This document shows positions 35,708 to 55,202 of a stretch of DNA of 64,000 nt, one piece after another. Both the position numbers and the translations under genes were made by a program. The notes below the pieces were generated by a model. The model saw nothing but the letters and a program-made list of their open reading frames with translations, made no database searches and had not been told where the DNA came from. Source of the stretch: Vibrio taketomensis (GTDB lineage Bacteria > Pseudomonadota > Gammaproteobacteria > Enterobacterales > Vibrionaceae). The DNA is taken from positions 1,240,001-1,304,000 of the forward strand of contig NZ_AP019650.1 in NCBI RefSeq assembly GCF_009938165.1, in the 5' to 3' direction. The stretch's first letter is position 1, and each line of letters begins with the position of its first letter.

Positions 35708-36427
35708 ATGGCAAGATTGCCAATGTATCGCCAAATCGCTGATGCAATTCGTGCAAAGATCAGTGCCGGAGACTATAAAGTCGGAAATGCTTTACCGACA
35801 GAAGCCCAATTAAGAGAAGAGTTTTCGGTCAGCCGAGTCACGGTTCGCCAAGCCATTAAGCTATTGGTGGAAAGCGGTGAACTTGAAAGTAAACAAGGCA
35901 GCGGTACATACGTTAAACAAAACAAAGTCAACTACGACATTTATCAGCAAAGTAGTTTTGCTGAAAAATGGTCACACCTCGACTCCGTCACTCGTAGTGA
36001 TGTATTAGCATTTGAGATCCGCAACGCATCTTTAACCCTCGCAGAACACCTCGATATCTCAGAAGGTGATAAAATTTTCTACGTTAAGCGCGTGCGTTAT
36101 GTCGATGATAATCCTATTACTGTTGAAGAAACTTGGCTGCCGATTGAGATGTTCCCTGACCTCACTTATCAAGTGATGCAAGGTTCAAAGTATGACTATA
36201 TCGAAAAACAAAAAGGCTTAGTCATCGATCGCAGTGAGCAAGAAATTGTCCCCATTCTTCCGCCTAGTGATATTGCTGCCTTGCTCGGTATTGACCCGGC
36301 GTTGCCGATTATTGAAAAGCGCACGCGTAGTCACTTAATTGATGACACCGTATTTGAATACAGCCGCAACTACGTGAAATCTAGCGACTATAAGTTTACT
36401 CTGGTTGCAAAACGTCATCGCTCGTAA
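35708..36427 (+). CDS. mngR: GntR/HutC-family repressor of mannosylglycerate genes
   Basis: 239 aa from ATG 35708, with GAGGAAACGT as ribosome binding site, so the in-frame upstream start at 35657 is not needed. N-terminal winged helix (YRQIADAIRAKISAGDYKVG, FSVSRVTVRQAIKLLVESGELE), then a UTRA effector domain (GDKIFYVKRVRYVDDNPITVEETWLP). Length and position match E. coli MngR (FarR), divergent from mngA. The effector is probably mannosylglycerate-6-phosphate or a fatty acid, as described for the E. coli protein. Confidence 0.88.
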   Translation: MARLPMYRQIADAIRAKISAGDYKVGNALPTEAQLREEFSVSRVTVRQAIKLLVESGELESKQGSGTYVKQNKVNYDIYQQSSFAEKWSHLDSVTRSDVLAFEIRNASLTLAEHLDISEGDKIFYVKRVRYVDDNPITVEETWLPIEMFPDLTYQVMQGSKYDYIEKQKGLVIDRSEQEIVPILPPSDIAALLGIDPALPIIEKRTRSHLIDDTVFEYSRNYVKSSDYKFTLVAKRHRS

Positions 36428-36486: not shown

Positions 36487-37121
36487 ATGAAAACAATATT
36501 ATGCTTTGGCGACTCCAATACCTGGGGCTATATCCCAGAACTTGGTGGTCGCTATGCGCCTGAACTGCTTTGGACTTCATTATTAGAAGCCATGCTACCA
36601 ACCAATTGGCAGGTGATTAACGAAGGCTTACCCGGGCGTACCACCGGTTTTCACGAATCGATTCATAATCCGCATTCTGGCCTGGGTTATTTTCTGCCTT
36701 GTTTGGAAAAATATCAGCCCGATATCGTGGTAATTATGCTCGGCACCAACGATTTGCAAGCCCACCTAAGCTTATCAGCTGAAGAGATCTCGCACGGTGC
36801 AGCGCAACTCATCAAGCAAGCGCAACATTTTGCCACTCACCACAATGGTGCCTTAAGCAGCACGGTCAGTGATATCGTATTTGTCTGCCCTCCTCCTATT
36901 TATGAAGTCGGTTTTGCCGCTCAAGGATTTAACGGCGGCGCAGAAAAATCACGTCAATTCCCTGCTCACTATCAAGCTCGCGCGCAGAACTTGGTTGTTA
37001 CTTTCTTAATGCTGGCGAGTATGTATCGAGTAGCCAAAACGAAGGGATTCATTGGGATAGTGCTCAACCGGTGAAATTTGCCAACGCACTTTATGATGTG
37101 ATTCGTCCGCTGATCAGCTAA
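36487..37121 (+). CDS. SGNH/GDSL-family hydrolase, frameshift near the end
   Basis: ATG 36487. Block I GDSNTWGY contains the catalytic Ser, followed by INEGLPGRTT (block II) and MLGTNDLQ (block III, Asn). A frameshift near 36990 hides block V; in the other frame it reads NEGIHWDSAQPVKFANALYDVIRPLIS, restoring the catalytic Asp/His pair, and stops at 37121. About 211 aa. It acts on acyl or acetyl esters, possibly carbohydrate deacetylation. It follows mngR by 59 bases. No signal peptide is visible. Confidence 0.75.
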
Positions 37122-39081: not shown

Positions 39082-40328
39082 TTACTGCATGTTCTTATCT
39101 AGTAGACCCGCAGCTAGTGCTGGTGCTAGACCTGGAGTTAGCGGTAGACGTGGAATCACCAGACAGTGCATTAGGTGGTAAATGTCTTGTTTACCATCCC
39201 ATACAACGCTTGTGCCCGCTTGGTTATTTACATCAAGCTCTTGCCACCATGAACAACCTTCGTAGTCAATTAGGTAAGTACGGCAGTAATCCCACCATGT
39301 ACGGTACCAATCTTCGTATTTCTTCTCACCAGTAACCGCGAACAGCGCGTATGCAGTACCGATTGCTTCTACTGGAGCCCAACGGATACGCTCACGAACC
39401 ACTGGTTGACCTTCCCAGTCTACTGAGTAAACAAAGCCAGGTGCGCCGTCTACGTGCCATGCGTCACGTACTGTTGCGTCAAATAGACCAATCGCGTCTT
39501 CTAGTAACCATTCTGGGCACTCTGCACCGATTTCTAGTAGCGTTGCACGTAGATGACAGATTAGACGGCCCCACTCGATCCAGTGACCAGGTGTACCGCC
39601 GTACGCACGGAAGTGGCTCGCTGGTGTTTCTTTGTTGTAGTCTGGTAGTGGGTTCCAGTTTGAATCAAAGTGCTCGTTTACACGGTAGCTTAGGCTCTTC
39701 GCAGTCTTGTTGATCATGAATTCAGTGATGTTTAGAGCGCGATCTAGCCATTTCTTATCTTTAGTTACATCGTAAACGATTAGGAATGCTTCAACCGAGT
39801 GCATTGCCATGTTACCGCCACGGTAGTCTTCAGTTTCAGTCCAAGCCTGATCCCATGACTCGTAACACATTTGCTTTTCTTCAACCCAGAAGTGTTTTTC
39901 GTACACTGTGATTGCTTCATCTAGAAGCGCTTTAGCACGTGGGTGACCAGTGGTCACTGCACTTGCCGCACCTAGTAGTACGAAAGCGTGTTGGTAACCT
40001 TGCTTAGAAGAGTCAACAATACCTTCACCAGAGTTGTCGATCGTTGCGAACCAGCCACCGTGAGTGTGGTCTTTTAGTGGACCTTCAAGTGCAGCAATAC
40101 CGTGTTCTACTAGGTCGTAAGCACCTGGCGGCCCATATGTGCTAGTGCGTAACAGTGAAGCATACGTGCCGTGATCCATAGGCGTGTGCCCATCTCTTCA
40201 CGAATGTTACCGTTGTTACCCACCCAACCAAATCCGTTTGGCACGACAGAGCGACGGCCGAATTCAAAGATACGATCTGTTTCAGTATCAAGCCAAGAGG
40301 TATGAGATTTGGTGTTAATCCATTTCAT
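39082..40328 (-). CDS. yihS: Sulfoquinovose isomerase (AGE family, YihS type), one frameshift
   Basis: ATG 40328 with AGGAAAC upstream. The N-terminus [19 protein letters not shown] and the segments [65 protein letters not shown] and [21 protein letters not shown] follow E. coli YihS closely as recalled. The His residues in the last two segments are the AGE-family catalytic positions. One shift in a G/C run near 40130 separates residues 1-68 from the rest (HMGR then [10 protein letters not shown]). Converts sulfoquinovose to sulfofructose. Last gene of a six-gene operon. Confidence 0.85.
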
Positions 40329-40403
40329 ATTTGTTTCCTATGTATTTCTTTTACTAATGTAAATTTGGTTTTATCTTGGGCAGCAGAATGACTGTTTTGA
40401 TTA

Positions 40404-40670
40404 TCAGTTTGCTGCTTGAGTTCGTATTTCTTCAGCTAGGTTATGCACATCAAAGAAAACCACTTGAATTTGGTTTTCCGGCAAGCGAATAAAACCTAGT
40501 GCACCTTGACGACGTAGTAAGCCTTCATTAACGATTTCTAAATCTTTAACTTGGATACGTAGACGAGTTGCGCAGTTGTCGATTTTGCCCGCTACGATGT
40601 TCTCTACACCGCCCATCGCTTTAAGGATTTTTTGAGCTTTAGCTTGTAAATTGCCTTTATCGTTGATCAT
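40404..40670 (-). CDS. Stand-alone PTS EIIB domain (glucose family)
   Basis: 88 aa comprising only an EIIB domain of the glucose/GlcNAc family: AQKILKAMGGVENIVAGKIDN, then CATRLRIQVKD with the phosphorylatable Cys, then GALGFIRLPENQIQVVF. No EIIC or EIIA gene lies in this operon, whose transporter is a TRAP system. It could be a remnant of a PTS permease, a regulatory phospho-switch, or part of a kinase relay. 75 bases upstream of yihS and 57 bases after dctP, co-transcribed. Confidence 0.8.
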   Translation of the reverse strand: MINDKGNLQAKAQKILKAMGGVENIVAGKIDNCATRLRIQVKDLEIVNEGLLRRQGALGFIRLPENQIQVVFFDVHNLAEEIRTQAAN

Positions 40671-40727
40671 CGACTTTCTCCTGATGGTGAAAGTGCCAAG
40701 TGTTTCTTGACACTTATCAACCTGGTA

Positions 40728-41774
40728 TTACATGGTTAGCTTGTAAGAAGCTTCGATTTGAGCTTCACAAGATTTGATTTCGTTGTTGAAACGCTCCAAC
40801 CACTGCTTGCCTTCCGCATTCGCATTTGCAGCCCAGTCATCGATAACCGGTTGCGTTGCTTGAATGAACGCTTCTTTTTCTTTTTCAGTTGGGTTGTAAA
40901 TCTTACCGTTAGACGCTTTGAACGTTTCGTAAGACGCGTATTCGTTATGTTTAGGGTAAGCGTTTAGGTATTGCTGCTGACCTTTGATTGCGTCAAGAAC
41001 GATGCGTTTTAGCTCTGGAGATAGCGAATTGAATTTCGCATCAGACATTACCCAAGCGCCACCCATGTAACCGTGGCCATCAAGCGTTAGGTAATCCAAG
41101 CTTTCGTGTAGACGGCTTTGAATGATATCGACGATACCGTTCTTAGTGCCTTCTACTACGCCCGTTGAAAGCGCGGTGTAAACTTCAGGGAATGCCACCG
41201 GTGTTGGTGCGCCTTTTAGCTCACGAACAAGATCTTGCTGAATTTTCGCTGGTACAGTACGGATTTTTAATCCCGCTACGTCTGCTGGAGTACGGATTTC
41301 TTTATTGTTAGTCGCAAAGTTACGCCAGCCACCAGAGTTCGCAACCATCATCAAACGTACGTTTGGAGCTTTCTTCAGTACGTTATCACGCACTTCAGAC
41401 ATGAACTGATCGTTACCGTATACACACTCAGCTACACGGTCATTTGGCAGTAGGTATGGTAGGTCAAATGACTCTGCTGGGTTCCAGTAGTAAGCAATTT
41501 CCGAAACCGTCGTTGGGAAGTAATCAAACATACCCGCTTGGATTCCGGCAATACATTCTTTACCTGAACCACATAGCTGACCTGAACCGTAGATGTTTAC
41601 TTTTAGCTCGCCGTTAGAACGCGTTTCTAAGTGGTTCTTGAAAACAAGTAGAGACTGGTGGTTATAGCTCTCTGGAGACGTCAAGTGCACAACGTTGAAT
41701 TCAACCGCAGCGGTTGCTGCTGCACTTGCGAATAGACCTGCCGTGGTCATTAGAGCTAATAGTGTCTTTTTCAT
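40728..41774 (-). CDS. dctP: TRAP transporter solute-binding protein, DctP family
   Basis: 348 aa. Cleavable signal peptide (MKKTLLALMTTAGLFASAAATA), so periplasmic. Typical DctP body with VAGLKIRTVPAKI, whose conserved Arg usually binds an acidic group, and ALSTGVVEGTKNGIVDI. It binds an organic anion and delivers it to the DctQM membrane pair encoded immediately upstream. In this operon the ligand is probably a sulfonate such as sulfoquinovose or dihydroxypropanesulfonate (inference from neighbours). RBS AGGACAAAGTT. Confidence 0.9.
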   Translation of the reverse strand: MKKTLLALMTTAGLFASAAATAAVEFNVVHLTSPESYNHQSLLVFKNHLETRSNGELKVNIYGSGQLCGSGKECIAGIQAGMFDYFPTTVSEIAYYWNPAESFDLPYLLPNDRVAECVYGNDQFMSEVRDNVLKKAPNVRLMMVANSGGWRNFATNNKEIRTPADVAGLKIRTVPAKIQQDLVRELKGAPTPVAFPEVYTALSTGVVEGTKNGIVDIIQSRLHESLDYLTLDGHGYMGGAWVMSDAKFNSLSPELKRIVLDAIKGQQQYLNAYPKHNEYASYETFKASNGKIYNPTEKEKEAFIQATQPVIDDWAANANAEGKQWLERFNNEIKSCEAQIEASYKLTM

Positions 41775-41840
41775 AACTTTGTCCTAGATAGGTAATTTTT
41801 GTTAGCGGCACCAGACGCAGTGCCGCTAAAACTCAATCCG

Positions 41841-43130
41841 TTACATAATGCCAGCCAGTTTAGGTAGGCCGATTACCAGTGATGGGAAGAATGAAATCAG
41901 GAAGATGATTGCCATTTCAACGATTAGGAATGGAATGATTTTCTTAGAGATTTCTGACACTGAAATTTTCGATACACCTGATGCGACGAACAGTACTAGA
42001 CCCATTGGAGGAGTTGCCAAACCGATTGAAAGGTTTGCACACATCACCACACCAAAGTGAACTGGGTCGATACCCGCAGCCGTCATGATTGGCGCGAAAA
42101 TTGGAGCGAAGATCAGGATAGCTGGGCCCGCATCAAGGAACATGCCGATGATAAATAGCAGTACGTTGATGATGGCAAACAGCAAGTAAGGGTTACTCGT
42201 AATGCCAGCCATAAAGTCAGCAACCATGGTCGACACACCAGATAGACTGATCAGTGACGCAAAACCACTTGCTGCTGCTACGATGATCAGAATCGATGCT
42301 GCGTTTACTGCCACTTTGGCAAATAGTGCGTATGTCGCTTTAACGTTAGTTGCTTTGATGATGTATAGCGAAACGACGATTGCGTATGCTACTGCTACCG
42401 CTGCTGCTTCTGTTGGTGTGAAGATACCGCCGTAAATACCACCTAGAATAATTACTGGCGTCATTAATGGTACGATAGCAAGACGGAATGCTTGACGACG
42501 TTCCATTGCTGGCGCACGTTCCATTGGCTGTACTTGAGGGTACTTAGCGATTTGGAAACGGTTCATGATCATCAGACCGATACATAGAATGATGCCTGGA
42601 GTCACACCTGCCAAGAACATCGCAGCGACTGACGTGTTCATTACGAACGCGTAGATCAACATGATGCCTGATGGTGGAATGATGTTACCAAGTACAGTCG
42701 CCGCCGCTGTCAGTGCTGCTGAATAACCGGTATCGTATTTGTACTTTTGCATCTCAGGGATAAGCATGCCGCCGATCGCTGATGTTGCCGCTACTGCTGA
42801 GCCTGTTAGTGCGCCAAAGATTGTCGCCGCAAGGATAACTACGTGACCTAAACCACCGCGCAGATGCTGTACCATGGTTTGAGCAAACGCGATGATACGT
42901 GGTGTGATACCACCCGCTGTCATACACTCACCCGCTAACATGAAGAATGGCAGAGCAAGCAGCAGGAAGCTATCTAGACCAGAGTAAAGACGTTGGTACA
43001 GCATGTTCGCAAACAACATTTGGTCGTTTTGGAACAGCGTGATCATTGGAGATAAGCCCAATGTGAATAGTACTGGTACGCCGACAATAAGCAGTACTAA
43101 GAAATAAATTAGAAAGATTGGAGAAACCAT
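41841..43130 (-). CDS. dctM: TRAP transporter large permease, DctM family
   Basis: 429 aa, strongly hydrophobic with about 12 membrane segments. Family motifs include LALPFFMLAGECMTAGGIT, LTGSAVAATSAIGGMLIPEM, GNIIPPSGIMLIYA and PMGLVLFVASGVSKIS. Its ATG overlaps the dctQ stop by one base (TAATG), showing tight coupling. Na+-driven import of the DctP-bound solute across the inner membrane. Confidence 0.93.
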   Translation of the reverse strand: MVSPIFLIYFLVLLIVGVPVLFTLGLSPMITLFQNDQMLFANMLYQRLYSGLDSFLLLALPFFMLAGECMTAGGITPRIIAFAQTMVQHLRGGLGHVVILAATIFGALTGSAVAATSAIGGMLIPEMQKYKYDTGYSAALTAAATVLGNIIPPSGIMLIYAFVMNTSVAAMFLAGVTPGIILCIGLMIMNRFQIAKYPQVQPMERAPAMERRQAFRLAIVPLMTPVIILGGIYGGIFTPTEAAAVAVAYAIVVSLYIIKATNVKATYALFAKVAVNAASILIIVAAASGFASLISLSGVSTMVADFMAGITSNPYLLFAIINVLLFIIGMFLDAGPAILIFAPIFAPIMTAAGIDPVHFGVVMCANLSIGLATPPMGLVLFVASGVSKISVSEISKKIIPFLIVEMAIIFLISFFPSLVIGLPKLAGIM

Positions 43131-43765
43131 TATTTAACGCCCTCTAAAGATGCTACTGCAGGTTCAATTTGCGCGTCTTTGTCAGCCGCTTCAGAACTTG
43201 TATCTTGAATTGCTGATTGCTCATAAAGTGCAACCGTCGCTTGAGATTGAGAAACGTCAGTAAAGTCGCCTAGCGTGCCACGAATGCATTGAATGCTTTT
43301 CTGTAGCGCATAAACCATGGTGACTGCCATCATTACAGGTGGAATGATGTAGATTACGTACATTGGAATTGGCAGACTGTCAGCCATTACAGAACCGGTG
43401 TTGTAGAAGTTCCAGCCAAACTTAATCCAAACAGCAAATACGATGATTGCCGAGATATGACCAATTAGACCGAATAGTGAGAACAAGCGAGGTGCTTTCT
43501 TCTCTACAATTTCAGTCACGAACGTCATCGCAATGTTTTTGTCAGCCAAGTACACAAATGGAAGACATAGATAAGTCATGTAGATCATCAAGAAGCGCGC
43601 CGCTTCGTCTGTCCAGCTTAAAGGCACGTTAAACACGTAACGGAAGAGTACTTGAGCAACAACCATCGTTGTCATCACGAGAAGCAAAATACCTGCGACA
43701 TGGCGCAGTACTTTCGCGACGGGGGTAGTTACTGTATTCAATGCTTTTTCTAGGGTACGTAGCAT
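43130..43765 (-). CDS. dctQ: TRAP transporter small permease, DctQ family
   Basis: About 211 aa from ATG 43765 (MLRTLEKALNTVTTPVAKVL), chosen because GGTGATT precedes it; a longer in-frame start at 43825 adds a charged tail unlike the family. Four membrane segments, VAQVLFRYVFNVPLSWTDEAARF is the DctQ signature. The C-terminal 45 residues are an acidic, unusual extension (SSEAADKDAQIEPAVASLEG). One-base overlap with dctM. Confidence 0.88.
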   Translation of the reverse strand: MLRTLEKALNTVTTPVAKVLRHVAGILLLVMTTMVVAQVLFRYVFNVPLSWTDEAARFLMIYMTYLCLPFVYLADKNIAMTFVTEIVEKKAPRLFSLFGLIGHISAIIVFAVWIKFGWNFYNTGSVMADSLPIPMYVIYIIPPVMMAVTMVYALQKSIQCIRGTLGDFTDVSQSQATVALYEQSAIQDTSSEAADKDAQIEPAVASLEGVK

Positions 43766-43848
43766 AGAATCACCATCATTTTTATATAGGGCTTTCGGGA
43801 AAAAGGGTGCCGAGGTAAGCAGCACCCGTGTCTTGTATTACTTTTTAG

Positions 43849-44709
43849 TTATGCTTTGCCGTTTGAACCAAACAGGCGAATCTTGTGGCGAACCACTTCT
43901 TTCATCGAAGCGATACCAGTGTTCATTACGTCTGCAAGTACGTAGTCTTTTGCGTTTGCTTGCCAGTGCGCTTGAACACCATCGATGAAGCCTTGACGCA
44001 GTTCAGTGTCAACGTTGATTTTCGCTACGCCGCGTTTCACAGCTTCGATAACTTGGTCATCTGGAACACCTGAACCACCGTGAAGAACGATAGGTTTTTT
44101 CACTGCTTCTTTGATTTCTGACAGACGGTCAAATTTCAATTGCGGTGTTGTTTTGTAAACACCGTGAGCAGTACCGATTGAAACAGCTAGGTAGTGAACG
44201 CCAGTGCGCTCAGAGAAATCTAGTGCTTCGTCTACTGTTGTGATCATTGCGTCTTTCTCATCAACAGTGATGTCATCTTCTGTGCCGCCGATCTTACCGA
44301 TCTCACCTTCAGCACCTAGGCCTAGCGCATTCGCTACGTCTACAACGGCTTTAGTGATGCGTACGTTCTCTTCGAAATCAAGTGCAGAACCATCAAACAT
44401 AAGTGATTGGAAATCACATGTTGCCGCTTCCATGCATTGCTCAAACTTGCGGCTGTGGTCTAGGTGAACACACACTGGTACCGTGATTTGGTGGTATTCA
44501 ATCAATGAATCAATCGCGTTGCGAAGTGGCTTCATGCCCATTTCGTTAATTGCTTTTTGACCGATTTGAATCATGATTGGTGATTGCTCTTCTTGAGCGG
44601 CAAGTAGAACTGCTTTAATCGTTTCTAGGTTGTGAGCAGTGAAAGCGCCGATTGCATAGCCGTTTTTCCACGCTTCATTAATCATTGTGTTACCAGATAC
44701 GTAAGGCAT
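43849..44709 (-). CDS. Class II (zinc) aldolase, probable sulfofructose-phosphate aldolase
   Basis: 286 aa of the FBA/KbaY/GatY class II family. Zinc ligands are in VHLDHSRKFE, SIGTAHGVYKT and IVLHGGSG; acidic active-site segment GAEGEIGKIGGTEDD. The GGSG and INVDTE loops that hold the DHAP phosphate are intact, so a phosphorylated ketose such as 6-deoxy-6-sulfofructose-1-phosphate is expected, giving DHAP and sulfolactaldehyde. E. coli uses an unrelated class I aldolase (YihT) for this step; a zinc enzyme is used in the reported sulfo-EMP2 variants. First gene of the operon, AAGGAAG before ATG 44709. Confidence 0.82.
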   Translation of the reverse strand: MPYVSGNTMINEAWKNGYAIGAFTAHNLETIKAVLLAAQEEQSPIMIQIGQKAINEMGMKPLRNAIDSLIEYHQITVPVCVHLDHSRKFEQCMEAATCDFQSLMFDGSALDFEENVRITKAVVDVANALGLGAEGEIGKIGGTEDDITVDEKDAMITTVDEALDFSERTGVHYLAVSIGTAHGVYKTTPQLKFDRLSEIKEAVKKPIVLHGGSGVPDDQVIEAVKRGVAKINVDTELRQGFIDGVQAHWQANAKDYVLADVMNTGIASMKEVVRHKIRLFGSNGKA

Positions 44710-45216
44710 TGTTTTCTTCCTTAATTCTATTCGGTCATGAAGACCTTTATTTCGTTGTGGTCAAAGTTACCAAGCCAAGATGTCTATTTCTGTTAGCCGG
44801 ATAACACTTCCTGTCAGTTTGGTGACATCAATTGTCATAAATGCACTCGCAATCACAAAATGCTCAATAATTGATAAATTGCCATAGACTTCTGAATAAA
44901 TTTGCAAGGCAAGCCCTGTTCAATAACATATTTATACAAATGGCTATTGGCTGATTTCATTACCAAATTTCGCTCAACCCCTTTAAACATTAGGGGTTGG
45001 GGGCAAAATTTAGAGGTATCGATTGTGATGCTAAATGGACTTCTCTTATTTTGCTGACAGGCTTATTTGAGATTCTTTAACAGCCTTTTAGCGTCTAAAA
45101 AGACCTAAAAGGCTGGGTATTTAAGATGGTATTTGTAAGTAATTATCGTTCTTAACCTTGTCAAATAGTGTTCGATTTATGTCACTTAAGGCTAATAAAC
45201 TACCACTATCGGGCTA
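44710..45216. promoter_or_regulatory. Region between the aldolase operon and yihU
   Basis: 507 bases with no gene. Contents: a TGACA-N5-TGTCA dyad (about 44831-44845) in the aldolase promoter region; a weak TGTCTA/GGTCA match to the yihU/tauE element near 44759-44786; hairpin CAACCCCT-N9-AGGGGTTG near 44977-45001; and a terminator-like hairpin after yihU near 45082-45115. Confidence 0.5.
45080..45117 (-). terminator. Terminator of yihU
   Basis: CAGCCTTTTAG / CTAAAAGGCTG perfect 11-bp stem with an internal CGTC...GAC hairpin, about 100 bases after the yihU stop. The flanking T-run is weak, so efficiency is uncertain. Confidence 0.5.
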
Positions 45217-46110
45217 TTACTTAACTTTTGGCTCTAAACCTGAGCTCACGCGTAACTGCTCAAGTACTGCTGTCCAGTCTTGACGGCCGCGGCCTGCTGC
45301 ACGAGTAAGGTTGTACATTTCACGCGCAGCTGCACCACATGGCATTGGAACGTTAACTTGGTTTGCAAGGTCGAGTGCGATACCTAGATCTTTATGTGCA
45401 AGGTCAACCATGAATACTGGAGATAAATCGCCAGCTAGCACTTTGCCAGGCCATGTTGTTGTGAAGTGACCTTTACCTGCAGGGGTGCCACTCATCACTT
45501 TCATTGATGTTTCCCAATCTAGACCGATAGCTTCAGACAGGGTTGCCGCTTCTGCAGACAATGCGTTTAGTGCGATACTCATGTAGTTGTTGATGATCTT
45601 AACGCGAATACCTTTACCCGCACCGCCACAGTCAACAGTCTCGTTACCCATGCAATCAAATAGTGGCGCAGCACGTTCAACTTGCTCTTTCGTACCGCCA
45701 GCCATAATAAGAAGTTCACCGCGGACAGCATGCTCAGAAGTACGGCCAACTGGCGCTTCCATCATTGAAAAACCTAGCTCAGACATTTGTTTGATTAGGC
45801 TATCTGTTTCAAGCGGGTGGATAGTTGACATATCAATTAGAAGCGCGTTTTTGTCTAACGTCGTTGTTACGCCGTTCTCACCCAGAAGAACGTTTTTAAC
45901 CAGTGTGCCGTTTGGCAGCATCGTTACAACAAACTCAGCGTCTAGTGCCGCTTCAGCTGGTGATGTTGCCGCTGTTGCGCCTTGCTCAACCAGTTGTTGA
46001 ACCGCAGCTTGATTGATATCGAAAACTTTAAGAGTGTGACCACCTTTGATTAGATTTAGCGCCATTGGCGTGCCCATTTGACCTAAACCGATAAAACCAA
46101 TCGTAGACAT
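45217..46110 (-). CDS. yihU: 3-sulfolactaldehyde reductase (YihU type)
   Basis: 297 aa of the beta-hydroxyacid dehydrogenase family. Rossmann motif [16 protein letters not shown] at the N-terminus and catalytic Lys171 in VKIINNYMS. The residues reported to bind the sulfonate in E. coli YihU, Arg123 (PVGRTSEHA), Asn174 and Ser178, sit at exactly the same numbers, and long stretches ([30 protein letters not shown]) match YihU as recalled. It reduces sulfolactaldehyde with NADH to 2,3-dihydroxypropane-1-sulfonate. AAAGGA precedes ATG 46110; a 27-nt element shared with tauE lies 77 bases upstream. Confidence 0.93.
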
Positions 46111-46494
46111 TTTTAATTCCTTTCACGTTCGCGGATAAGTAAGTTGGGAGTAATATAAACATAAATGACATTCCCAACCATTACACCTGTCACATTTTGT
46201 TGTTTTATGTCTACTTCAGTAATTTTATGATTATAAATTGAGCTGAACTTCTTTTTGTAGTATTTGTAACAACAATATGATGCAACCTATCCATGCTTTA
46301 TCCAGAAAATGCGTCGCCACGGCCACAGCAAATCATGCTCAAGATAGACAAAGAGAGCATTGGTTATTTTGTTGTATGAAAATGAGAGTGAAAATAAAGA
46401 CTGAGTAAATGAGAAAGGTTATGGCTAAAGTGAAAGAGATGACGAACAGCCGTATTCGTCATCTAAACAAAACAAGAGAGTGATTTAAGCGTAA
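46111..46494. promoter_or_regulatory. Region between yihU and the glycyl-radical activase gene
   Basis: 384 bases without a gene. Holds the yihU promoter with the shared element at 46187-46213 and, 32 bases after the activase stop, the stem GATGACGAA / TTCGTCATC (46438-46463), a weak terminator candidate. Confidence 0.5.
46187..46213 (-). promoter_or_regulatory. 27-nt regulatory element, copy upstream of yihU
   Basis: Read on the minus strand it starts TAGACATAAAACAAC and ends AAAATGTGACAG. It differs at one base from the copy at 50257-50283 and has the same orientation and nearly the same distance to its downstream gene (77 versus 70 bases). Too specific for chance; a shared regulator site or extended promoter. 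Confidence 0.75.
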
Positions 46495-47449
46495 CTAAGC
46501 GGCGTCATGCTCTTTAGTGCCAACACAGCAATTAATACCACGCTGGTTGAAGTACTCGGCAATATCACTCACCTGCTTTTGGAACTCATGACGATCAAAT
46601 TTCAGGTCTTGCATTTTGTATGGCAAACCTAGCGACTGGTATTTTTCTTCGCCTAAGCGCATAAAACTCAGCAGCTGCAGCACATTGACTCGCCCGTTGA
46701 GCTCATTTTGAATGAAATCAGCGGTCGCGCTGATGTTCTCTTGATTATCATTGATACTCGGAATCACCGGAATACGTAAAATCAGCTCTTTGCCAAGCTC
46801 AGTCAGCGATTTAATATTTTTGTGAATCTTACGATTATCCACTCCGGTATAACGCTTATGAGTCTCACTATCCATTAACTTGAGATCAGAGATAAACAGA
46901 TCAGTGTAAGGCAATACCTTTTCTATCCGGTTCCAGTTTGCGTAAAAGCTTGATTCGAGACATGTGTGGATCCCCTCTTGTTTACAGGCTTTAAATAGCT
47001 CATAAACAAAATCGCTTTGCAGCAATGGCTCACCACCCGATACCGTCACGCCGCCACCCGAGCGGTCATAAAATCCTCGGTCTTTGCGAATCAGCTCCAT
47101 GCAGGCTTCAACCGACATATACTCGCCCCATTGCTTGATCGCTTCTGAAGGACACTCTTCGACACAACTCAAGCAGCCCGTACATTGATGACGGTCGATA
47201 CTCTTAAGCATCGAATCAGAGTAAATCAACATCTTGTTGTCCGGGCAAATCTCCAAACAAGAACCACAATGCTCGGTGGAGATACATTTATTGTGGTAAA
47301 CCCCAACCTCTATTCGACGCTTAAAACTCTCAGGGTTTCCGCACCAATCACAGCGCAGCGGGCACCCTTTGAGAAAGATTTCTGTGCGAATACCGGGCCA
47401 TCATGAAGGGTAAATCGCTGAATATTTAAAACAATTCTAGGTCTGACAC
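46495..47449 (-). CDS. Glycyl radical enzyme activating enzyme (radical SAM), N-terminal frameshift
   Basis: The reliable frame is 46495-47395. It contains two ferredoxin-type 4Fe-4S motifs (CISTEHCGSCLEICP and CTGCLSCVEECP), as in diol-dehydratase-type activases, and VTVSGGEPLLQ. The radical-SAM CxxxCxxC (KGCPLRCDWCGNPE) is present just upstream, but one base is missing in HDGP(G)IRTEIF near 47397, and the start around GTG 47449 is uncertain. Makes the glycyl radical on the adjacent large enzyme, using S-adenosylmethionine. Strictly anaerobic chemistry. Confidence 0.82.
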
Positions 47450-47544
47450 AATTAACCTCAACCGTTGTTTAAAAACACAAATACCCAAACCACCGATTCG
47501 TCCATAACGTGACAAATGGCAGCTTGGGTATCACAACTGGTTAA

Positions 47545-50076
47545 TTAAAACCTAAGTTCAGTACGTTGAATCAAATCATCTTGCAATGGTTTACCCAGTT
47601 CAACGAAGTAAGCGCTGTAACCGGCGACACGCACCAACATGTCTTTGTATAGCTCAGGATTTTTCTGCGCAGCGCGCATTTTCTCTGAGCTCATAATGTT
47701 GAATTGCACGTGCATACCTTGCTTACCAATGTACTCATCAACAAAGCTCAGCAAAATATCACGACCTTCTACGCCAGATACCGCATCTTCAGGGAAGCGT
47801 AAGTTAAGCAGCGTACCGTTAGTCGCCAAGCTATGGTCAACTTTGGTTACCGAGTTAATCACCGCCGTTGGGCCGCTAATATCGTGTGAACCACCTGCCG
47901 TATGCACTGGCCCCATGTTGTCAGAAATTGGCTCACCGTTCTTACGGCCATCGAGTGATGCGTTGGTGTATAAGCCCATACCCACGTTCGCGTTTACAGT
48001 GTAAACACCCGGGCTAAATTTGCCGCCACGCGGGTTTTCACGTCCTTTAATATGACGGCAGTAACATTCAAACATGAATGAGAACAGCTCATCTGCTTCA
48101 TCGATATCGTTACCGTAATGCGGGATCTTCGAGCTATTCACCAAAGCGTAGAGCTTCTGATGACCATCCCAGTTCTCTTTTACGGCATCAAGTAACTGTT
48201 TACCCGTGTATTTTTTGTCATCAAACATCAGCTTCTTGATCGTCGCTAATGAGTCAGCACAAGTTGCAATACCTGCTGCTTGCGGCGCGGTACCATTGTA
48301 TTTTGCGCCGCCGTAAGTCATATCTTTACCGGATTCAATACAGCCTTCAAAGAACGCAGAAATATATGGCGTTGGTTTGATCATGCGGTGCATTTTGTCA
48401 GTTACGTTCAAGCAACTGCACAACTGATCACACCAATAAGCAAACTGCTTATCAACACTCTCAAGCACTTCTTCAAACGATTGGTACGTTTCAAGACTAC
48501 CGGTATCAGGGCCAAGTTGCATGCCCGCATTCGGGCCAGATAGAATGCGACCACCGTTGATCACCATTTCCATCATCTTAACCGTATTCACGTAACCCGC
48601 ATCTAACCAGCCGTGCTCTTTACCAGGAATAGTTGGTTCAACGCAGCCCACTACCGCGTAATCACGCGCTTCTTCCTGAGTCACGCCTTTACCCAACATC
48701 GCTTTAATCGCTGGGCCATCGTTAAATAGTTTCGGGTGGCCGTAACCTGCGCGTACACATTCAATAGTTTTTAGTTTTAGCTCAATTGGCGTTTTGTCAT
48801 GCAGACGCACACACACCCAAGGGTTCATCATGCGAGTATGTGCTGACGCTTCCAGCATCAACATAGTCAGATCGTTGGTCGCATCGTTACCGTGAATATC
48901 CACACCACCAATCGTTAAGCTCTCACCACCAAAACCGCGACCGTTACGTACTTTTACCGTGCCTTTGTCTTTAAGCTTGGTTGGGTTGTTCATTTTCACG
49001 TAAAGCACTTCAAGTACTTCTAGAACAAACTCTTTTGATACGCCATTCTCTTGCACATCTTTGGTGTAGAACGGCAGCATCCATTGGTCCATACGACCGT
49101 AAGAAATCGAGTGACCATTGCCTTCAATTTGCGTCATGGTGACCGCAAAGTTGAAGAGCTGGGCAGCTTGCCAGAATGTTTGGGGCACACCACCCGCAAT
49201 TTGGTAACAGTTGGCTGACATCGCTTGCAGCTCGTTCTTACGCTTTTCATCGCTTTCATTAAACGCCATATCTTCAGCAAGCAGCGCATAACGAGTGATG
49301 TATTTGATTGCCGCTTCTAATGCAATAATGGTCGCTTTGTAGTAATCGCGCTTATCACAGTAATCTGGATCTTGTTTTGAAAGCTTGGCGAACGCTTCTT
49401 GCGCTTGGAGCAATACGCCGCCGTAGCCCAAAGTCATCAGTTTGTTAAAGTCCATCGCGAAGTGACCGATACCCGCGAAGTGGTAGTTATTGGTCTGAAA
49501 GACTTTCTCACCCATGTGAGAGCCTTTCTTCTGATCATCATCAAGATGCGCAGTAATGAACTCGTTGGCACTCTTACCTTTCCAGTAAGCACATAACTCT
49601 AAAATTTCTGCGCGATCTTGCTCATTACGAATATAAAACTGATCGTTAGAACGCTCTTCAAACGGCGAGTTAAGAATCTCATCGATGATCCAATCCACTG
49701 AAAACTCAGGGTAAATCGGTGATGCTTTTGCCGGTGCGGCAATCTCACCCAGAATCAAATCTTCATCATAGATGTTTAACGTCGAGTTAAGCAGGATGTT
49801 TTCAAACGCAATCGCACACTGAAGAATACGCGGCATCGCATCGTTATCACGGTATGCCTCGGTGACTAAACGTAATCTCTCTACGTCAATGTCGTATGGT
49901 CTATCTAAAAATGTTTGACGTAGGCGGTTAACACGCGGGAACGGAGACCAATCAGCATGACCTACTTCATAACCAAGGCCGTACACCTTATCTACGGCTT
50001 CAGTACCAATCGCATCGGTGTGCGCTGTCGTTTTTAGCTCAAACAAGCTCTCTTTGTCTGCTTGGAAGTTTTCCAT
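47545..50076 (-). CDS. Glycyl radical enzyme, candidate dihydroxypropanesulfonate sulfolyase (HpsG-like)
   Basis: 843 aa from ATG 50076, with AGGT six bases upstream. Thiyl-radical Cys and base Glu lie in AVVGCVEPTIPG (about residue 480), the glycyl radical in VRVAGYSAYFVELGKPLQ near the C-terminus. The GCVE motif is shared by diol dehydratases, choline TMA-lyase, isethionate lyase IslA and HpsG. No microcompartment shell, propanediol or choline genes are near, while yihU (which makes dihydroxypropanesulfonate) and tauE flank it. C-S cleavage to hydroxyacetone and sulfite is therefore the favoured role; 1,2-dehydration as in HpfG is the alternative. Confidence 0.8.
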   Translation of the reverse strand: MENFQADKESLFELKTTAHTDAIGTEAVDKVYGLGYEVGHADWSPFPRVNRLRQTFLDRPYDIDVERLRLVTEAYRDNDAMPRILQCAIAFENILLNSTLNIYDEDLILGEIAAPAKASPIYPEFSVDWIIDEILNSPFEERSNDQFYIRNEQDRAEILELCAYWKGKSANEFITAHLDDDQKKGSHMGEKVFQTNNYHFAGIGHFAMDFNKLMTLGYGGVLLQAQEAFAKLSKQDPDYCDKRDYYKATIIALEAAIKYITRYALLAEDMAFNESDEKRKNELQAMSANCYQIAGGVPQTFWQAAQLFNFAVTMTQIEGNGHSISYGRMDQWMLPFYTKDVQENGVSKEFVLEVLEVLYVKMNNPTKLKDKGTVKVRNGRGFGGESLTIGGVDIHGNDATNDLTMLMLEASAHTRMMNPWVCVRLHDKTPIELKLKTIECVRAGYGHPKLFNDGPAIKAMLGKGVTQEEARDYAVVGCVEPTIPGKEHGWLDAGYVNTVKMMEMVINGGRILSGPNAGMQLGPDTGSLETYQSFEEVLESVDKQFAYWCDQLCSCLNVTDKMHRMIKPTPYISAFFEGCIESGKDMTYGGAKYNGTAPQAAGIATCADSLATIKKLMFDDKKYTGKQLLDAVKENWDGHQKLYALVNSSKIPHYGNDIDEADELFSFMFECYCRHIKGRENPRGGKFSPGVYTVNANVGMGLYTNASLDGRKNGEPISDNMGPVHTAGGSHDISGPTAVINSVTKVDHSLATNGTLLNLRFPEDAVSGVEGRDILLSFVDEYIGKQGMHVQFNIMSSEKMRAAQKNPELYKDMLVRVAGYSAYFVELGKPLQDDLIQRTELRF

Positions 50077-50100
50077 AGCTAACCTCATGAAATATAGAAT

Positions 50101-50171
50101 CAAAATGCCAATGCTCGCGCCTACTCATTGGAGATTGGTCTTCTACGAGCGATTCAAACATTGGCATTTTG
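50101..50171. promoter_or_regulatory. 13-bp perfect inverted repeat upstream of the glycyl radical enzyme
   Basis: CAAAATGCCAATG (50101-50113) and CATTGGCATTTTG (50159-50171) pair perfectly across 45 bases that contain a further GCTCG...CGAGC match. It starts 25 bases upstream of the enzyme's start codon, so it could be a leader-mRNA stem controlling the enzyme or a paired operator. Confidence 0.6.
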
Positions 50172-50256
50172 ACGACGTATTAAGGCCTAAAACACCAAGC
50201 CATTATAAAAAACCGCTCAATTTTGTCTGGGGCGATGGTCACAAATCGAAACCATA

Positions 50257-50283
50257 TAGACAAAAAACAACAAAATGTGACAG
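50257..50283 (+). promoter_or_regulatory. 27-nt regulatory element, copy upstream of tauE
   Basis: TAGACAAAAAACAAC...AAAATGTGACAG; 26 of 27 bases equal the copy upstream of yihU. Also lies 181 bases upstream of the divergent glycyl radical enzyme gene. Confidence 0.75.
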
Positions 50284-50352
50284 ATGCAATGGTAATTAAT
50301 CCTAATAAATTTATAGTGACGCTTCATTCACTACGCTCTATCAAATGGATAT

Positions 50353-51093
50353 ATGGACACCACGATAATTCTCATCTCGTTGATCATAGCTCTGGCAGGC
50401 TTTACACAAGGTCTTACTGGGTTTGGGTCTGCACTTGTTTCCGTTCCCCTACTTTCTCTGATCGTAGGTGCACAAACGGCAGTGCCAATTGCGGGTATTT
50501 TTGGCTGGTTGGTAACACTACCAATCGTGTGGAAAATGCGACATTCAATTCAACGTCAAACCGGTTTGATCCTGTTTGCGGGTTCTGTACCAGCCTCTTT
50601 TGTTGGGGCAAAACTATTGGCAAGCATGCCGTCTCAATACATTTTGTTGACGATGGGTGCGGTGCTCATTATCTCAAGCATTCACTCGTTACGTGCAACT
50701 AAGCCTTTGTTTAAAGAGGCTTCTATGCCACTAACGATCGGTGCTGGTTTTACCTCAGGCGTACTTGGAGCAAGTGTTGGTGAGTCAGGTCCACCAGTTA
50801 TTGCTTACACATCAATGCAGCCTTGGACAGCGGACCAAACCAAATCAACGTTAGCGTTCTTCTTTATGCTACAAATGATTGGTGCCAACGTAAGCTTCTG
50901 GAATGAAGGCTTGATTACAGACGAAGTTGTTTCACACGTGATCTCTGCTCTACCTGCTTTCGCAATTGGTTTGGCAGGCGGTATGATCGGTTACCACTTC
51001 CTACAGAAGTACAAGATCGACTACCACAAGATTGTGCATAGCTTCCTACTCGTCATGGGCTTTATGCTTGTGTTCAAAAATGTAAGTTTTTAG
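50353..51093 (+). CDS. tauE: TauE/SafE-family sulfite or sulfonate exporter
   Basis: 246 aa with about 8 membrane segments. The N-terminal GFTQGLTGFGSALVSVPLLSL and the repeated half GAGFTSGVLGASVGESGPPVIAY are the TauE/SafE signature. Such exporters accompany sulfonate catabolism and remove sulfite or organosulfonate end products. Divergent from the glycyl radical enzyme across 276 bases. If the radical enzyme is a C-S lyase, sulfite is the expected cargo; otherwise dihydroxypropanesulfonate. Confidence 0.88.
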   Translation: MDTTIILISLIIALAGFTQGLTGFGSALVSVPLLSLIVGAQTAVPIAGIFGWLVTLPIVWKMRHSIQRQTGLILFAGSVPASFVGAKLLASMPSQYILLTMGAVLIISSIHSLRATKPLFKEASMPLTIGAGFTSGVLGASVGESGPPVIAYTSMQPWTADQTKSTLAFFFMLQMIGANVSFWNEGLITDEVVSHVISALPAFAIGLAGGMIGYHFLQKYKIDYHKIVHSFLLVMGFMLVFKNVSF

Positions 51094-51203: not shown

Positions 51204-51971
51204 TTAGAAATTGAAGGCAAACCCTGCCCCTAAAGCACTCTCATCAAAATTGTAGTTGGAGATCGTTAAACCGTAACCCGTTTCAGCTTTGACATAGCCA
51301 TTCAAACCTTGATAAAGCGGAAAACGCCACGACACACGGTAAAACCCCTTCTCCCAGTCTTCGGTAAATAAGTTGGCAATGGTCAGCTTAATTTCCTGAT
51401 TAGAAGATGGCTGCCAACCGAGTTCAACCTCCCCATACCCTAAGAAATCGACAATATCTGGGTTATATTTTTTGCTACCCACATTGACCCAAGGCTTAAA
51501 GCGTAAAAAGCCTTGATCAAATTGCCACTTCGCATCGGCATAGGCTCGGTTCCAACTGACCTCTTCATCGCCACCCGCACCATTAGATTGGTGTTCAAAG
51601 CCCAGTGAGACTTGCCAAATGTCATACACCAATTGATAGAAGAGTTCGGGATTGTACTCATGATCTCGAAAGTAGGCGGAATCGTCATACGCTTCCCAGT
51701 TTGAACGCTGCGTATAGCCAACAAATAGACCGTGTTCATCCCATGTTAGCAGCTTGTATTTCACACTTAATTGAAATTGAACAAAGGTATCTTTTGCTGC
51801 GTGCCCATTTGGGTTGAGCGGTTCATAGCGGGCTTGATTTACTTTGCTTTCGTGGTAAACCGGCAATAAATAATTATCTCTATTGGCAGAAAAACGACTC
51901 TCTTCTGCATGGGAGGTAGAGAGGAACACCACAGGTAATATCGGCACTACCCATCCAACGTTTAACCTCAT
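51204..51971 (-). CDS. pldA: Outer-membrane phospholipase A (PldA/OMPLA)
   Basis: About 255 aa from ATG 51971 (MRLNVGWVVPILPVVFLSTSHA, a signal peptide; GGGGG just upstream). The adjacent ATG 51974 is equally possible, and a longer in-frame start at 52040 is unlikely. The catalytic His-Ser pair is in GFEHQSNGAGG and the Asn in SWNRAYADAKW, as in E. coli OMPLA; the rest is 12-strand barrel sequence ending GAGFAFNF with a terminal Phe. It hydrolyses mislocalised outer-leaflet phospholipids. Single-gene unit, convergent with tauE. Confidence 0.9.
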   Translation of the reverse strand: MRLNVGWVVPILPVVFLSTSHAEESRFSANRDNYLLPVYHESKVNQARYEPLNPNGHAAKDTFVQFQLSVKYKLLTWDEHGLFVGYTQRSNWEAYDDSAYFRDHEYNPELFYQLVYDIWQVSLGFEHQSNGAGGDEEVSWNRAYADAKWQFDQGFLRFKPWVNVGSKKYNPDIVDFLGYGEVELGWQPSSNQEIKLTIANLFTEDWEKGFYRVSWRFPLYQGLNGYVKAETGYGLTISNYNFDESALGAGFAFNF

Positions 51972-51974
51972 CAT

Positions 51975-52393
51975 CTTCCCCCTTTTCATTCGAATTATTT
52001 CGTTAATTGCCAAATACCCTATCGGAAGTTTAGCTCCCAATAGTCAATCGTTATCTCTTATTTTCATTCACTTAGCTTGTCAGATTGCAATACAAACGAG
52101 GGCTCTCCGGACTGCAAGTCAAAGGGGAACTCCCAAAATTGCTACATATTTAAGTTAAGTCATTGTTTTTATCATGCTAGATCAAACGCGACAGCATAAC
52201 AATAAACGCGAGACTCCATCATTGTGGGTATACACATCCTGATGCAAATGATGAGTGCATAAGAATAAAACGAAGGAAGATAACCTTTGTTAAACACCGT
52301 CCACTCTTGGCTTGTTACATAACCGCCATCAATGAAATTTTTTAATCGTCCTTTAGGTCTTTTCCTACACACAAACAATGAGGTACATAAATT
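51975..52393. other. Intergenic region between pldA and the DUF417 gene
   Basis: About 420 bases between divergent genes. No credible gene or strong hairpin seen; promoters for both genes are presumably here. Confidence 0.35.
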
Positions 52394-52858
52394 ATGCATG
52401 CTGTAGAAAACGACGTTAGAAGAGACGACACTAGAAGAGACAACATCGGATACCTAATCGGTGTTTTTGGCGTTTCACTGGTTCTCGCTTGGATTGGAAT
52501 TTACAAATTCACACCGACTGAAGCTAAACTCATTCAGCCGCTGGTTGAAAATCATTTCGCCATGGGGTGGTTGTATAACCTCATCTCCGTTCAAGCCGTA
52601 TCCAATCTTATTGGAGCCACTGAAATCATTGTTGCTATTGGTCTTATTATTGGTATCAAGTACACCAAAATAGCCTATTTCTCTGGTATTGCGGCCGCAC
52701 TTATCTTTGTCGTTACCTTAAGCTTTCTTCTGACAACGCCAAACACGTGGAAGGTCTCCGACGGCGTATTAGTGACCAATTTTTTCTTAGTGAAGGACAT
52801 TCTATTTCTAGCAATAGCGGTGAGCGTTATCGAACGAAATAAACCTAGTAGACAATAA
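52394..52858 (+). CDS. DUF417 (YkgB/RclC-type) inner-membrane protein
   Basis: 154 aa with four membrane segments (LVLAWIGIYKFTPTEAKLIQPLV near the N-terminus, then LIGATEIIVAIGLIIG and IAAALIFVVTLSFLLTTP). The FTPTEA and SPLV-like region is characteristic of DUF417. In E. coli, RclC belongs to a reactive-chlorine resistance operon; here the gene stands alone, so its role is open. Confidence 0.8.
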   Translation: MHAVENDVRRDDTRRDNIGYLIGVFGVSLVLAWIGIYKFTPTEAKLIQPLVENHFAMGWLYNLISVQAVSNLIGATEIIVAIGLIIGIKYTKIAYFSGIAAALIFVVTLSFLLTTPNTWKVSDGVLVTNFFLVKDILFLAIAVSVIERNKPSRQ

Positions 52859-52991
52859 TTACTGAGCCCATTTTCACACCTTCCAAACTCACTTTTCGGC
52901 ACGAGTGTTTTATGGAATCGCTCAATTAAAAAGTGTCTGCTTTAAATCGCTAGGTATACTCATACAAGGCATACCTAGCTTCAAGACTACT

Positions 52992-53999
52992 TTATGACAA
53001 ACTAATTTGATTATTGAAATGTAGTAAGTGCTGCTTTACCTCATCTGACGCAAAAGAGCTATTTACACTGTAGGTGTATATTTGTTGGTAATCTTCTTTG
53101 GTCAACTTGAAGGTTTCGATAACCTTTCTCACCTCATTTGTCATCGTGGTTTTAGAAACCGTTCTATTGTCAGTGTTGATCGTCACTACAATCCCATCTT
53201 GGTAAAATTCGCCAATTGGGTGATGCGAAAATGCCTCGATACATTTGGTGTGGACATTACTTGTTGGACAGATTTCTAGAGCAATCGCCTGATCTTTTAC
53301 AACTGAGTAGGCGTCGCTATGATCTTTCATATGAACGCCGTGTCCAATGCGCTCAGCATTCAAAGTAGTAACAGCATCATAAACGTTCTTTCCATACCAC
53401 TGTTCGCCAGCATGAACGGTCAATCGGTAGCCTTTATCTGCGGCATATTGAGTAAATTCTGGAAAATCAGCGCAGAAATCCGGCTTCTCACCACCAGCAA
53501 TATCAAATGCCACAACACCATTATTTAACCAAGCAGCACCAGCATCAATGACCGCTTTGATCTGATCTTGGGGCATACCTCTGAGTACAGACAAAATGTA
53601 GTTACCATGAATATCATACATTGCCTCCGCTCTTTTCATCCCGCTGACAACACTTTCAATGATGTCGGAAATGCTTAACCCCAAATTTTGATGCAGTAAT
53701 GGACCAAACCTAACTTCCAGATACTTTACATTTTCATTTGCGGCATCTTCGAATAACTCAAAAGAAATGCGCTCTAACGTGTCTTTCGTTTGCATAACCT
53801 TGATTGGTAAATCGAAGCAATCGATGTATTCATCGAGGTTCTGACAGTCTTCCGGAGCGGATAAAGCGCTTACTAGGGCGTCTTTATCCTCTTTTTTGGC
53901 CAAACCTTGCTTTACTGCGAGTTCAAAAATCGTTTCCGGTCTAACGCTGCCATCTAAATGGCAATGAAGATCAATTTTCGGCAGGGCTAAATAGTTCAT
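52992..53999 (-). CDS. add: Adenosine deaminase
   Basis: 335 aa, normal length. Zinc motif PKIDLHCHLDGSVRPET at the N-terminus, catalytic TVHAGEQW (about residue 200), RIGHGVHM (His/Glu proton shuttle) and TINTDNRTVS with the final metal ligand Asp. Deaminates adenosine and deoxyadenosine to inosine in the cytoplasm. Divergent from a LysR regulator 102 bases away, which probably controls it. Confidence 0.92.
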   Translation of the reverse strand: MNYLALPKIDLHCHLDGSVRPETIFELAVKQGLAKKEDKDALVSALSAPEDCQNLDEYIDCFDLPIKVMQTKDTLERISFELFEDAANENVKYLEVRFGPLLHQNLGLSISDIIESVVSGMKRAEAMYDIHGNYILSVLRGMPQDQIKAVIDAGAAWLNNGVVAFDIAGGEKPDFCADFPEFTQYAADKGYRLTVHAGEQWYGKNVYDAVTTLNAERIGHGVHMKDHSDAYSVVKDQAIALEICPTSNVHTKCIEAFSHHPIGEFYQDGIVVTINTDNRTVSKTTMTNEVRKVIETFKLTKEDYQQIYTYSVNSSFASDEVKQHLLHFNNQISLS

Positions 54000-54101
54000 A
54001 TCTCTGGTTCTAACTTGTGGATTTGACGGCTAATCTATCCAAAATAATGTATGATTTGAATTGACGATATTTCCATTAAACTATGAATCTGAGGAATAAT
54101 T

Positions 54102-55061: not shown

Positions 55062-55202
55062 ACCGGCACTGTGACGACAAAAATCTCGTCGAATAGGCTT
55101 GGCTTGAGGTGGCATTGTGTTACCGCATTTAGTCACTAAAACGTTACAACGTCCTCCCCTTATAGTGATAAAATCACCGCATCAGAATTATTGAGAGAAT
55201 CT

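Follow-up and report, generated by a model that had tools for sequence, protein, structure and literature searches.

What becomes of the sulfur when a Vibrio ferments sulfoquinovose (SQ), and can one such bacterium take the process beyond dihydroxypropanesulfonate (DHPS)? The question is raised by a 64,000-nt stretch of Vibrio taketomensis DNA, henceforth the window, in which sulfoglycolysis genes adjoin a glycyl radical enzyme, its activase and a TauE/SafE-family protein. Of the two contigs that make up the 4.3 Mb genome, the window lies in C2 (1.34 Mb), which is probably the second chromosome. A first-pass annotation of this DNA had read the radical enzyme as HpsG-type, cleaving DHPS to hydroxyacetone and sulfite. 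Judged by its genes, the stretch very probably does hold the larger piece of an SQ fermentation set, of the hybrid sulfo-Embden-Meyerhof-Parnas (sulfo-EMP)/EMP2 kind, and this set would be extended past DHPS; however, the extending enzyme is most likely HpfG, a dehydratase that keeps the sulfonate intact.

Identity of the glycyl radical enzyme

The radical enzyme is an 852-aa open reading frame on the minus strand (47545-50076), with the GCVE motif at residue 486, as the first-pass annotation had recognised, and a glycyl-radical motif, RVAGYSA, at 825. It matches the (2S)-DHPS dehydratase model NF048009, the HpfG equivalog, across the whole profile (1-824 of 824) with 1598.7 bits against a cut-off of 1000, whereas the HpsG model NF048011 gives it 463.8 bits, below half of its own cut-off of 1000. 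The latter score is no higher than those of control HpfGs from Klebsiella spallanzanii (1721.7 bits for the HpfG model and 493.6 for the HpsG model), Hungatella hathewayi (1720.3 and 510.6) and V. thalassae (1621.8 and 502.0), in a comparison made with these three HpfGs and without an HpsG protein as positive control. Both models are named ‘dehydratase’ in NCBI’s description line. As far as the accessible text of the cited papers goes, here and below, HpsG cleaves a C-S bond and HpfG a C-O bond (PMC12890257, PMC9594981, PMC12330013), and the HpfG product retains the sulfonate, DHPS being converted to 3-sulfopropionaldehyde and then to 3-hydroxypropanesulfonate (PMC12890257, PMC11489063, PMC12330013).

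The window protein is 71-74% identical to the HpfGs of Klebsiella (74%), Hungatella and two Enterococcus. In a tree of 36 HpfGs, drawn from the 79 loci described below and the window, plus a single remote radical enzyme whose branch is very long, and without HpsG, IslA or CutC, it groups with those of V. fluminensis, V. sinensis and V. renipiscarius (SH-aLRT 97). Its PDB matches include glycerol dehydratase (626 bits), propanediol dehydratase (565 bits) and isethionate sulfite-lyase (329 bits), and the broad subfamily model TIGR01774 gives it 690 bits against a cut-off of 678, as it does the control HpfGs (684-713). A choline enzyme (model 505 bits, cut-off 1050) and a hydroxyproline enzyme (533 bits, cut-off 1100) were rejected as identities, and neither an isethionate nor a propanediol model was among the NCBIfam model matches.

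The window enzyme thus shares superfamily and substrate with HpsG, the DHPS sulfolyase of Bilophila and Desulfovibrio, but falls far under the HpsG cut-off and would cleave the other bond. It is most likely HpfG, catalysing a dehydration; membership of this dehydratase family means that the C-S bond would be kept and that sulfite release is unlikely, leaving the proposed cleavage to hydroxyacetone and sulfite without support.

Distribution of HpfD and YihU

A scan of species genomes with HpfG left 79 loci, of which the 24 gammaproteobacterial ones, plus the window, were sorted into two types. In type A (17 genomes, the window’s included) tauE is divergent and HpfE and HpfD are not nearby, while in type B (eight genomes) the stretch around HpfG holds both HpfE and HpfD. 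Genome-wide searches found HpfD, at 69% identity or above, in all eight type-B genomes, one as a fragment at a contig end, and in none of the 17 type-A genomes, where the best matches reached 34-39% and V. fluminensis had none at E 1e-40. YihU, by comparison, was found at 76% or above in every type-A genome; among type-B genomes, a search at E 1e-60 found it in none of the five Vibrionaceae, and all three enterics have it at 64-68%, one copy with an internal stop codon.

A second set comprised 247 Vibrionaceae genomes, including that of V. taketomensis and overlapping the first set. HpfG was found in 19 (E 1e-250), YihU in 24 (E 1e-110) and HpfD in four (E 1e-120). Fifteen of the HpfG-bearing genomes have YihU without HpfD and the other four HpfD without YihU, with none having both or neither; a further nine have YihU without HpfG. 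Fisher’s test of YihU against HpfD-less HpfG gave p = 3e-18, ignoring kinship. Type A corresponds to everything on one side of a single branch (SH-aLRT 84, not starred), so the pattern may reflect a single event.

A site shared by yihU and hpfG

Two copies of the sequence CAACAAAATGTGACAGNTGNAATGG lie in the window, one on the minus strand upstream of yihU (46178-46202, CAACAAAATGTGACAGGTGTAATGG) and one on the plus strand between hpfG and tauE (50268-50292, CAACAAAATGTGACAGATGCAATGG); 100 shuffles gave none. Allowing at most one mismatch, its core, CAACAAAATGTGACA, precedes yihU by a comparable distance in 15 of the 17 type-A genomes; one more has it with two mismatches, and it was not found within two in the last, nor in any of the three enterics. 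Between hpfG and tauE, the 25-mer pattern recurs with up to five mismatches in 14 of the 17 (not L006, L077 or L078). A core copy also lies between the YihW and YihR homologues found elsewhere on contig C2, and none near the region (L098) of the YihV homologue. Because that copy adjoins yihW, we would guess that a putative YihW-type regulator binds the site; an alternative reading is a CRP half-site. The accessible text of the CsqR paper (PMC10991401) contains no operator sequence for comparison.

YihU as candidate for the last reduction

The first-pass annotation’s YihU-type reductase (45217-46110, minus strand) is confirmed, by 500 bits to NF012005 (cut-off 348), 445 bits to PDB 6sm7, and Arg123, Lys171, Asn174 and Ser178 at the positions it had given; these residues are kept in 20 of 20 loci. 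As HpfD was not found, YihU is always present in type A and the upstream site is common, YihU may reduce both sulfolactaldehyde and 3-sulfopropionaldehyde. We tentatively propose, with somewhat less than even confidence, that in this HpfG clade of marine gammaproteobacteria YihU acts before and after HpfG and replaces a lost HpfD, the shared site tying both steps together. In favour of this, 3-sulfopropionaldehyde is the sulfonate analogue of succinic semialdehyde, for which E. coli YihU is reportedly, by the title of Saito 2009, a hydroxybutyrate dehydrogenase; counting against a double role, the E. coli enzyme strongly prefers the sulfonate over the carboxylate substrate.

Sulfoglycolysis genes and their order

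From 50 kb down to 39 kb, the minus strand carries hpfG, the activase, YihU, a class II aldolase, dctQ, dctM, dctP, an EIIB-like gene and YihS. The genes named in the first-pass annotation are present, but it had omitted a tripartite ATP-independent periplasmic (TRAP) transporter (40728-43825) and the EIIB-like frame. The aldolase (43849-44709; PF01116, 325 bits) was correctly recognised. Among 20 NCBIfam models it exceeds the cut-off only of the general cbbA subfamily, and its best PDB matches are 8q58 and 8q57 (415 and 398 bits), which we take to be the SqiA structures of Sharma 2023; it is a probable SqiA-type enzyme, acting on sulfofructose-1-phosphate. A SqiA homologue occurs in the hybrid cluster of another Vibrio (PMC13372026). 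The isomerase is a close YihS homologue, with 561-566 bits to the YihS chains PDB 2afa, 2rgk, 2zbl and 7ag4 (561 bits for the last), against 444 bits to the nearest NCBIfam equivalog, D-mannose isomerase (cut-off 600).

The TRAP genes encode the solute-binding protein DctP (40728-41774; PF03480, 200 bits), the large permease DctM (41841-43130; TIGR00786, 401 bits, above cut-off) and the small permease DctQ (43130-43825; PF04290, 83 bits). Directly upstream of YihS, the EIIB-like frame (40407-40670) encodes an 88-aa stand-alone domain of the glucose phosphotransferase system (PTS) family, with 45.3 bits to TIGR00826 EIIB_glc, slightly below the cut-off of 45.75, and a DNCATRLR cysteine motif; it also occurs in L001, L009 and L031, and no EIIC was seen next to the window copy. 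On the plus strand, the TauE/SafE-family protein (50353-51093; PF01925, 85.5 bits), which the first-pass annotation had also identified, is a probable sulfonate exporter, and its gene diverges from hpfG in all 16 type-A loci compared.

The most complete arrangement is found in Vibrio sp. ES.051 (L031), where the whole gene set occupies one 22.5 kb stretch, in the order LysR, dctP, YihQ, dhaK, gldA, tauE (divergent from hpfG), hpfG, hpfH, YihR, then YihW and YihV reversed, then YihU, aldolase, dctQ, dctM, EIIB and YihS. The loci of V. fluminensis (L001) and V. sinensis (L009) are colinear with it from tauE to EIIB, where their stretches end, with dctP before EIIB. Both have a kinase, mutarotase and DeoR-type regulator between activase and reductase, and none of the three is there in the window; only 154-155 of 440 bases of this gap align with L001 and L009, next to or into yihU. 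A check of related Vibrio for the same gene order found it in part. Sulfo-EMP genes are lacking around HpfG in eight of 16 type-A loci (L003, L004, L005, L006, L008, L015, L053 and L077), two of which were covered over a smaller length than the others, and L007 has YihQ alone. In the unlinked type-A genomes YihU lies elsewhere, always adjoining YihV and YihW.

An absence of the kinase from the V. taketomensis genome was ruled out by a whole-genome search. A YihV homologue, a PfkB-family sulfofructose kinase, is an open frame at G000:C2:1319195-1320046, 80.7% identical to that of V. fluminensis; it adjoins LysR, a second dctP, YihQ, dhaK and gldA, 20-28 kb beyond tauE, with the kinase itself at 28 kb. 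The homologue of YihQ, the sulfoquinovosidase, is 93% identical to that of V. sinensis, and a YihW-YihR pair (regulator and mutarotase; 64% and 73%) lies at C2:57626-60067. Homologues of all pathway genes except HpfD are therefore present, in three places on contig C2. Plain relocation of the kinase-regulator-mutarotase block is doubtful, since these copies are 64-81% identical to V. fluminensis, whereas the full-length open frames of the window locus are 82-98% identical. The first-pass claim that both halves of the route sit in one cluster thus stands insofar as the sulfoglycolysis and DHPS-processing genes adjoin in a Vibrio, but the kinase, regulator and mutarotase lie elsewhere.

Some features of the surroundings are recorded here. 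The two TRAP solute-binding proteins (40728-41774 in the window and L098:13290-14339) are 62% identical, with one DctQM set seen, and perhaps serve two substrates, such as SQ and SQ-glycerol; L031 has a single one, next to YihQ. Glycerol dehydrogenase and dihydroxyacetone kinase genes stand near YihQ in L098 (8146-10970), L031 and L075, and also occur in two Firmicutes HpfG loci, L033 and L071. The SQ genes are adjoined at 30722-36427 by a GH38 mannosidase, a fructose-type PTS and a GntR regulator, presumably resembling a mannosylglycerate (mng) locus. The approximately 20 kb from tauE to gldA (window 51204-64000 and L098:1-8145) hold genes with no evident link to SQ, among them those for a phospholipase A1 family protein (PF02253, 51204-52040), a DUF417 protein and a member of the adenosine deaminase family. 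In Chakrabartyella piscis (L045), a single stretch holds two matches to HpfG, one of 68% at position 1 and one of 71% at 10001.

Proposed pathway

Family membership, gene places, the shared site and the failure to find HpfD come from the sequence; the reactions in this organism, the cargo of transporter and exporter, and the enzyme of the last reduction are inferred. The TRAP transporter would take up SQ or its glycerol glycoside, YihS would isomerise SQ to sulfofructose, and YihV, encoded elsewhere on the contig, would phosphorylate this. The SqiA-type aldolase would then yield dihydroxyacetone phosphate (DHAP) and sulfolactaldehyde, which YihU would reduce to DHPS. Under anoxia, HpfG, activated by HpfH, would dehydrate DHPS to 3-sulfopropionaldehyde, and reduction, with YihU the favoured candidate, would give 3-hydroxypropanesulfonate, probably exported by the TauE-family protein. 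The extension would act as an extra NADH sink, with the C-S bond intact and no sulfite formed. By the established reactions, SQ to pyruvate should gain one NADH and spend one at YihU; HpfG and the aldehyde reductase would spend another, which could balance glycerol oxidation when SQ-glycerol is eaten. Use of glycerol dehydrogenase and dihydroxyacetone kinase for the glycerol of SQ-glycerol has been proposed in Faecalicatena (PMC11659671). In V. mediterranei AbY-1905, which grows on SQ, YihS- and SqiA-type genes are induced, and mutation of the isomerase abolishes SQ degradation (PMC13372026).

Frame-split isomerase and activase

Two genes are not in one frame in this assembly. The first 68 residues of the isomerase are encoded at 40128-40328 (minus strand; 94% identical to residues 1-68 of V. 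maerlii L002 YihS) and residues 67-416 at 39085-40134 (minus strand; 91.7% identical to that intact protein); these pieces were the only YihS matches genome-wide, no second copy being found. Likewise, the activase accompanying the radical enzyme in the first-pass annotation is present as a radical-SAM protein but split: by eye comparison with intact activases places its start (NIQRFTLHDGP) in the stop-to-stop frame 47310-47468 and the remainder in 46495-47400, both on the minus strand. The 253-aa piece scores 444.7 bits against the HpfH model NF048008, from profile position 62 on, and the cut-off of 500 is not reached in one frame. By eye, both breaks resemble single frame changes in short one-base runs.

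Other irregular genes were seen on contig C2: a PfkB gene split into two parts (C2:293794 and 293990, region 293794-294655), an iron alcohol dehydrogenase match with two stops (C2:268755) and, among the matches listed, a short LysR match (C2:282532). The tail of a GDSL hydrolase at 36487-37074 of the window also looks odd by eye. As other genes of the contig appear frame-split or short, the two breaks could be assembly errors; frame errors in single-base runs are also made by mistake in long-read assemblies.

Alternative explanations

Several points weigh against the proposal. Firstly, the distribution documents the loss of HpfD but not its replacement by YihU; should type A act on DHPS produced intracellularly, YihU would be expected with it anyway, and the three enterics carry both HpfD and YihU. 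Secondly, a dedicated 3-sulfopropionaldehyde reductase was not found in the V. taketomensis genome. Thirdly, the pathway is predicted here from genes, the isomerase and activase are split, such that its operation in this strain is in doubt, and the diverged YihV, YihR and YihW copies may serve another locus. Fourthly, the sulfo-EMP and HpfG halves are often unlinked, as in half of the type-A loci. Fifthly, V. mediterranei made DHPS stoichiometrically, though in shaken cultures (PMC13372026). Finally, HpfD is reported in the V. scophthalmi cluster (PMC9594981), whose genome is outside those compared here; this may be either a genuine exception or an enzyme resembling GldA.

The best-surviving alternative, which we regard as possible but doubtful, is that the locus is decaying and non-working in this strain, having lost its kinase, mutarotase and regulator and suffered breaks in its isomerase and activase. 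The split genes, the block absent from the locus, the lack of any YihS other than the split one and the frame-split or shortened PfkB, iron alcohol dehydrogenase and LysR genes all agree with this. However, the other genes of the locus are full-length open frames close to those of V. fluminensis, the breaks look like a known long-read assembly mistake, and the genes missing from the locus have homologues elsewhere in the genome.

It is unlikely, if only somewhat less plausible, that a general aldehyde reductase encoded elsewhere, or an oxidation, handles 3-sulfopropionaldehyde, such that HpfD needed no special replacement. At E 1e-40, iron alcohol dehydrogenases with 34-39% identity to HpfD turned up in 16 of the 17 type-A genomes, and L004 carries one about 10 kb from HpfG. 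Yet HpfD (at least 60%) is in the stretch of 40 of 63 loci outside type A, many of them shortened, against none of 16 in type A, and a linked partner reductase is hence the common state outside type A.

More improbable still is that a GldA-like iron alcohol dehydrogenase near some clusters, rather than YihU, performs this reduction. GldA and HpfD belong to one Pfam family, gldA is flanked by YihQ and TauE in L031 and L075, it replaces tauE upstream of HpfG in L168 (genome G235, one of the 15 with YihU and no HpfD), and a GldA-like enzyme is, at a guess, what was named HpfD in V. scophthalmi (PMC9594981). On the other hand, GldA is about 25% identical to HpfD (L096), scores as a glycerol dehydrogenase (553.8 bits, cut-off 336), and adjoins a dihydroxyacetone kinase match in 26 of 30 loci, which fits use of the glycerol of SQ-glycerol. 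Moreover, one of the 17 type-A genomes has no GldA match at E 1e-60 and another one of just 55%, against YihU in all 17.

Least credible by far is an HpsG-type sulfolyase, by which SQ would be fermented to DHAP, hydroxyacetone and sulfite and the sulfite exported by TauE. In its favour, the TauE/SafE name derives from sulfite export and the GCVE motif is present, but this motif is common to other eliminases too, two HpfD-bearing loci tested also have a TauE-family protein next to HpfG (PF01925, 75.8 and 74.0 bits), the isethionate sulfite-lyase match falls behind glycerol dehydratase, and the HpsG identity was rejected on the curated models with the three control HpfGs.

Relation to known systems and significance

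With the HpfG/HpfH/HpfD system of Klebsiella, Enterococcus gilvus and Hungatella, the window shares HpfG, an HpfH-like activase and a TauE/SafE-family protein. It differs in that no HpfD was found in its genome, sulfo-EMP genes stand alongside, and its tauE is divergent and distinct from the HpfE of those loci, with no cross match at the thresholds used. The extended sulfo-EMP cluster of V. scophthalmi (PMC9594981) also has HpfG inside a Vibrio sulfo-EMP cluster, and an NADH-consuming route to 3-sulfopropanol was proposed there; the HpfD reported in it was found neither in the V. taketomensis genome nor in the other 16 of type A. V. mediterranei AbY-1905, with its hybrid sulfo-EMP/EMP2 pathway (PMC13372026), shares the YihS-type isomerase and SqiA-type aldolase, but DHPS is reported as the end product there, and the word HpfG is absent from the main text; another isolate of that species (L008) has a type-A HpfG, away from its yihU.

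HpfG has therefore already been published with Vibrio sulfoglycolysis (PMC9594981, PMC11489063), and the general idea that one Vibrio ferments SQ past DHPS appeared in 2022 (PMC9594981). Apparently new are the shared site, the absence of HpfD across the clade and, among Vibrionaceae, its complementary distribution with YihU. No statement on YihU reducing 3-sulfopropionaldehyde, or on a Vibrio HpfG without HpfD, was found in the accessible text of the literature, subscription papers being outside its scope.

Among organosulfur compounds SQ is very abundant, and what the neighbours of Vibrio can do with the sulfur depends on which product is passed on, DHPS, sulfite or 3-hydroxypropanesulfonate; the last is no electron acceptor for Bilophila (PMC11489063). 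The favoured reading predicts that these bacteria would excrete a sulfonate that retains its sulfur, and the absence of HpfD alongside a constant YihU offers a direct test of how they finish the route.

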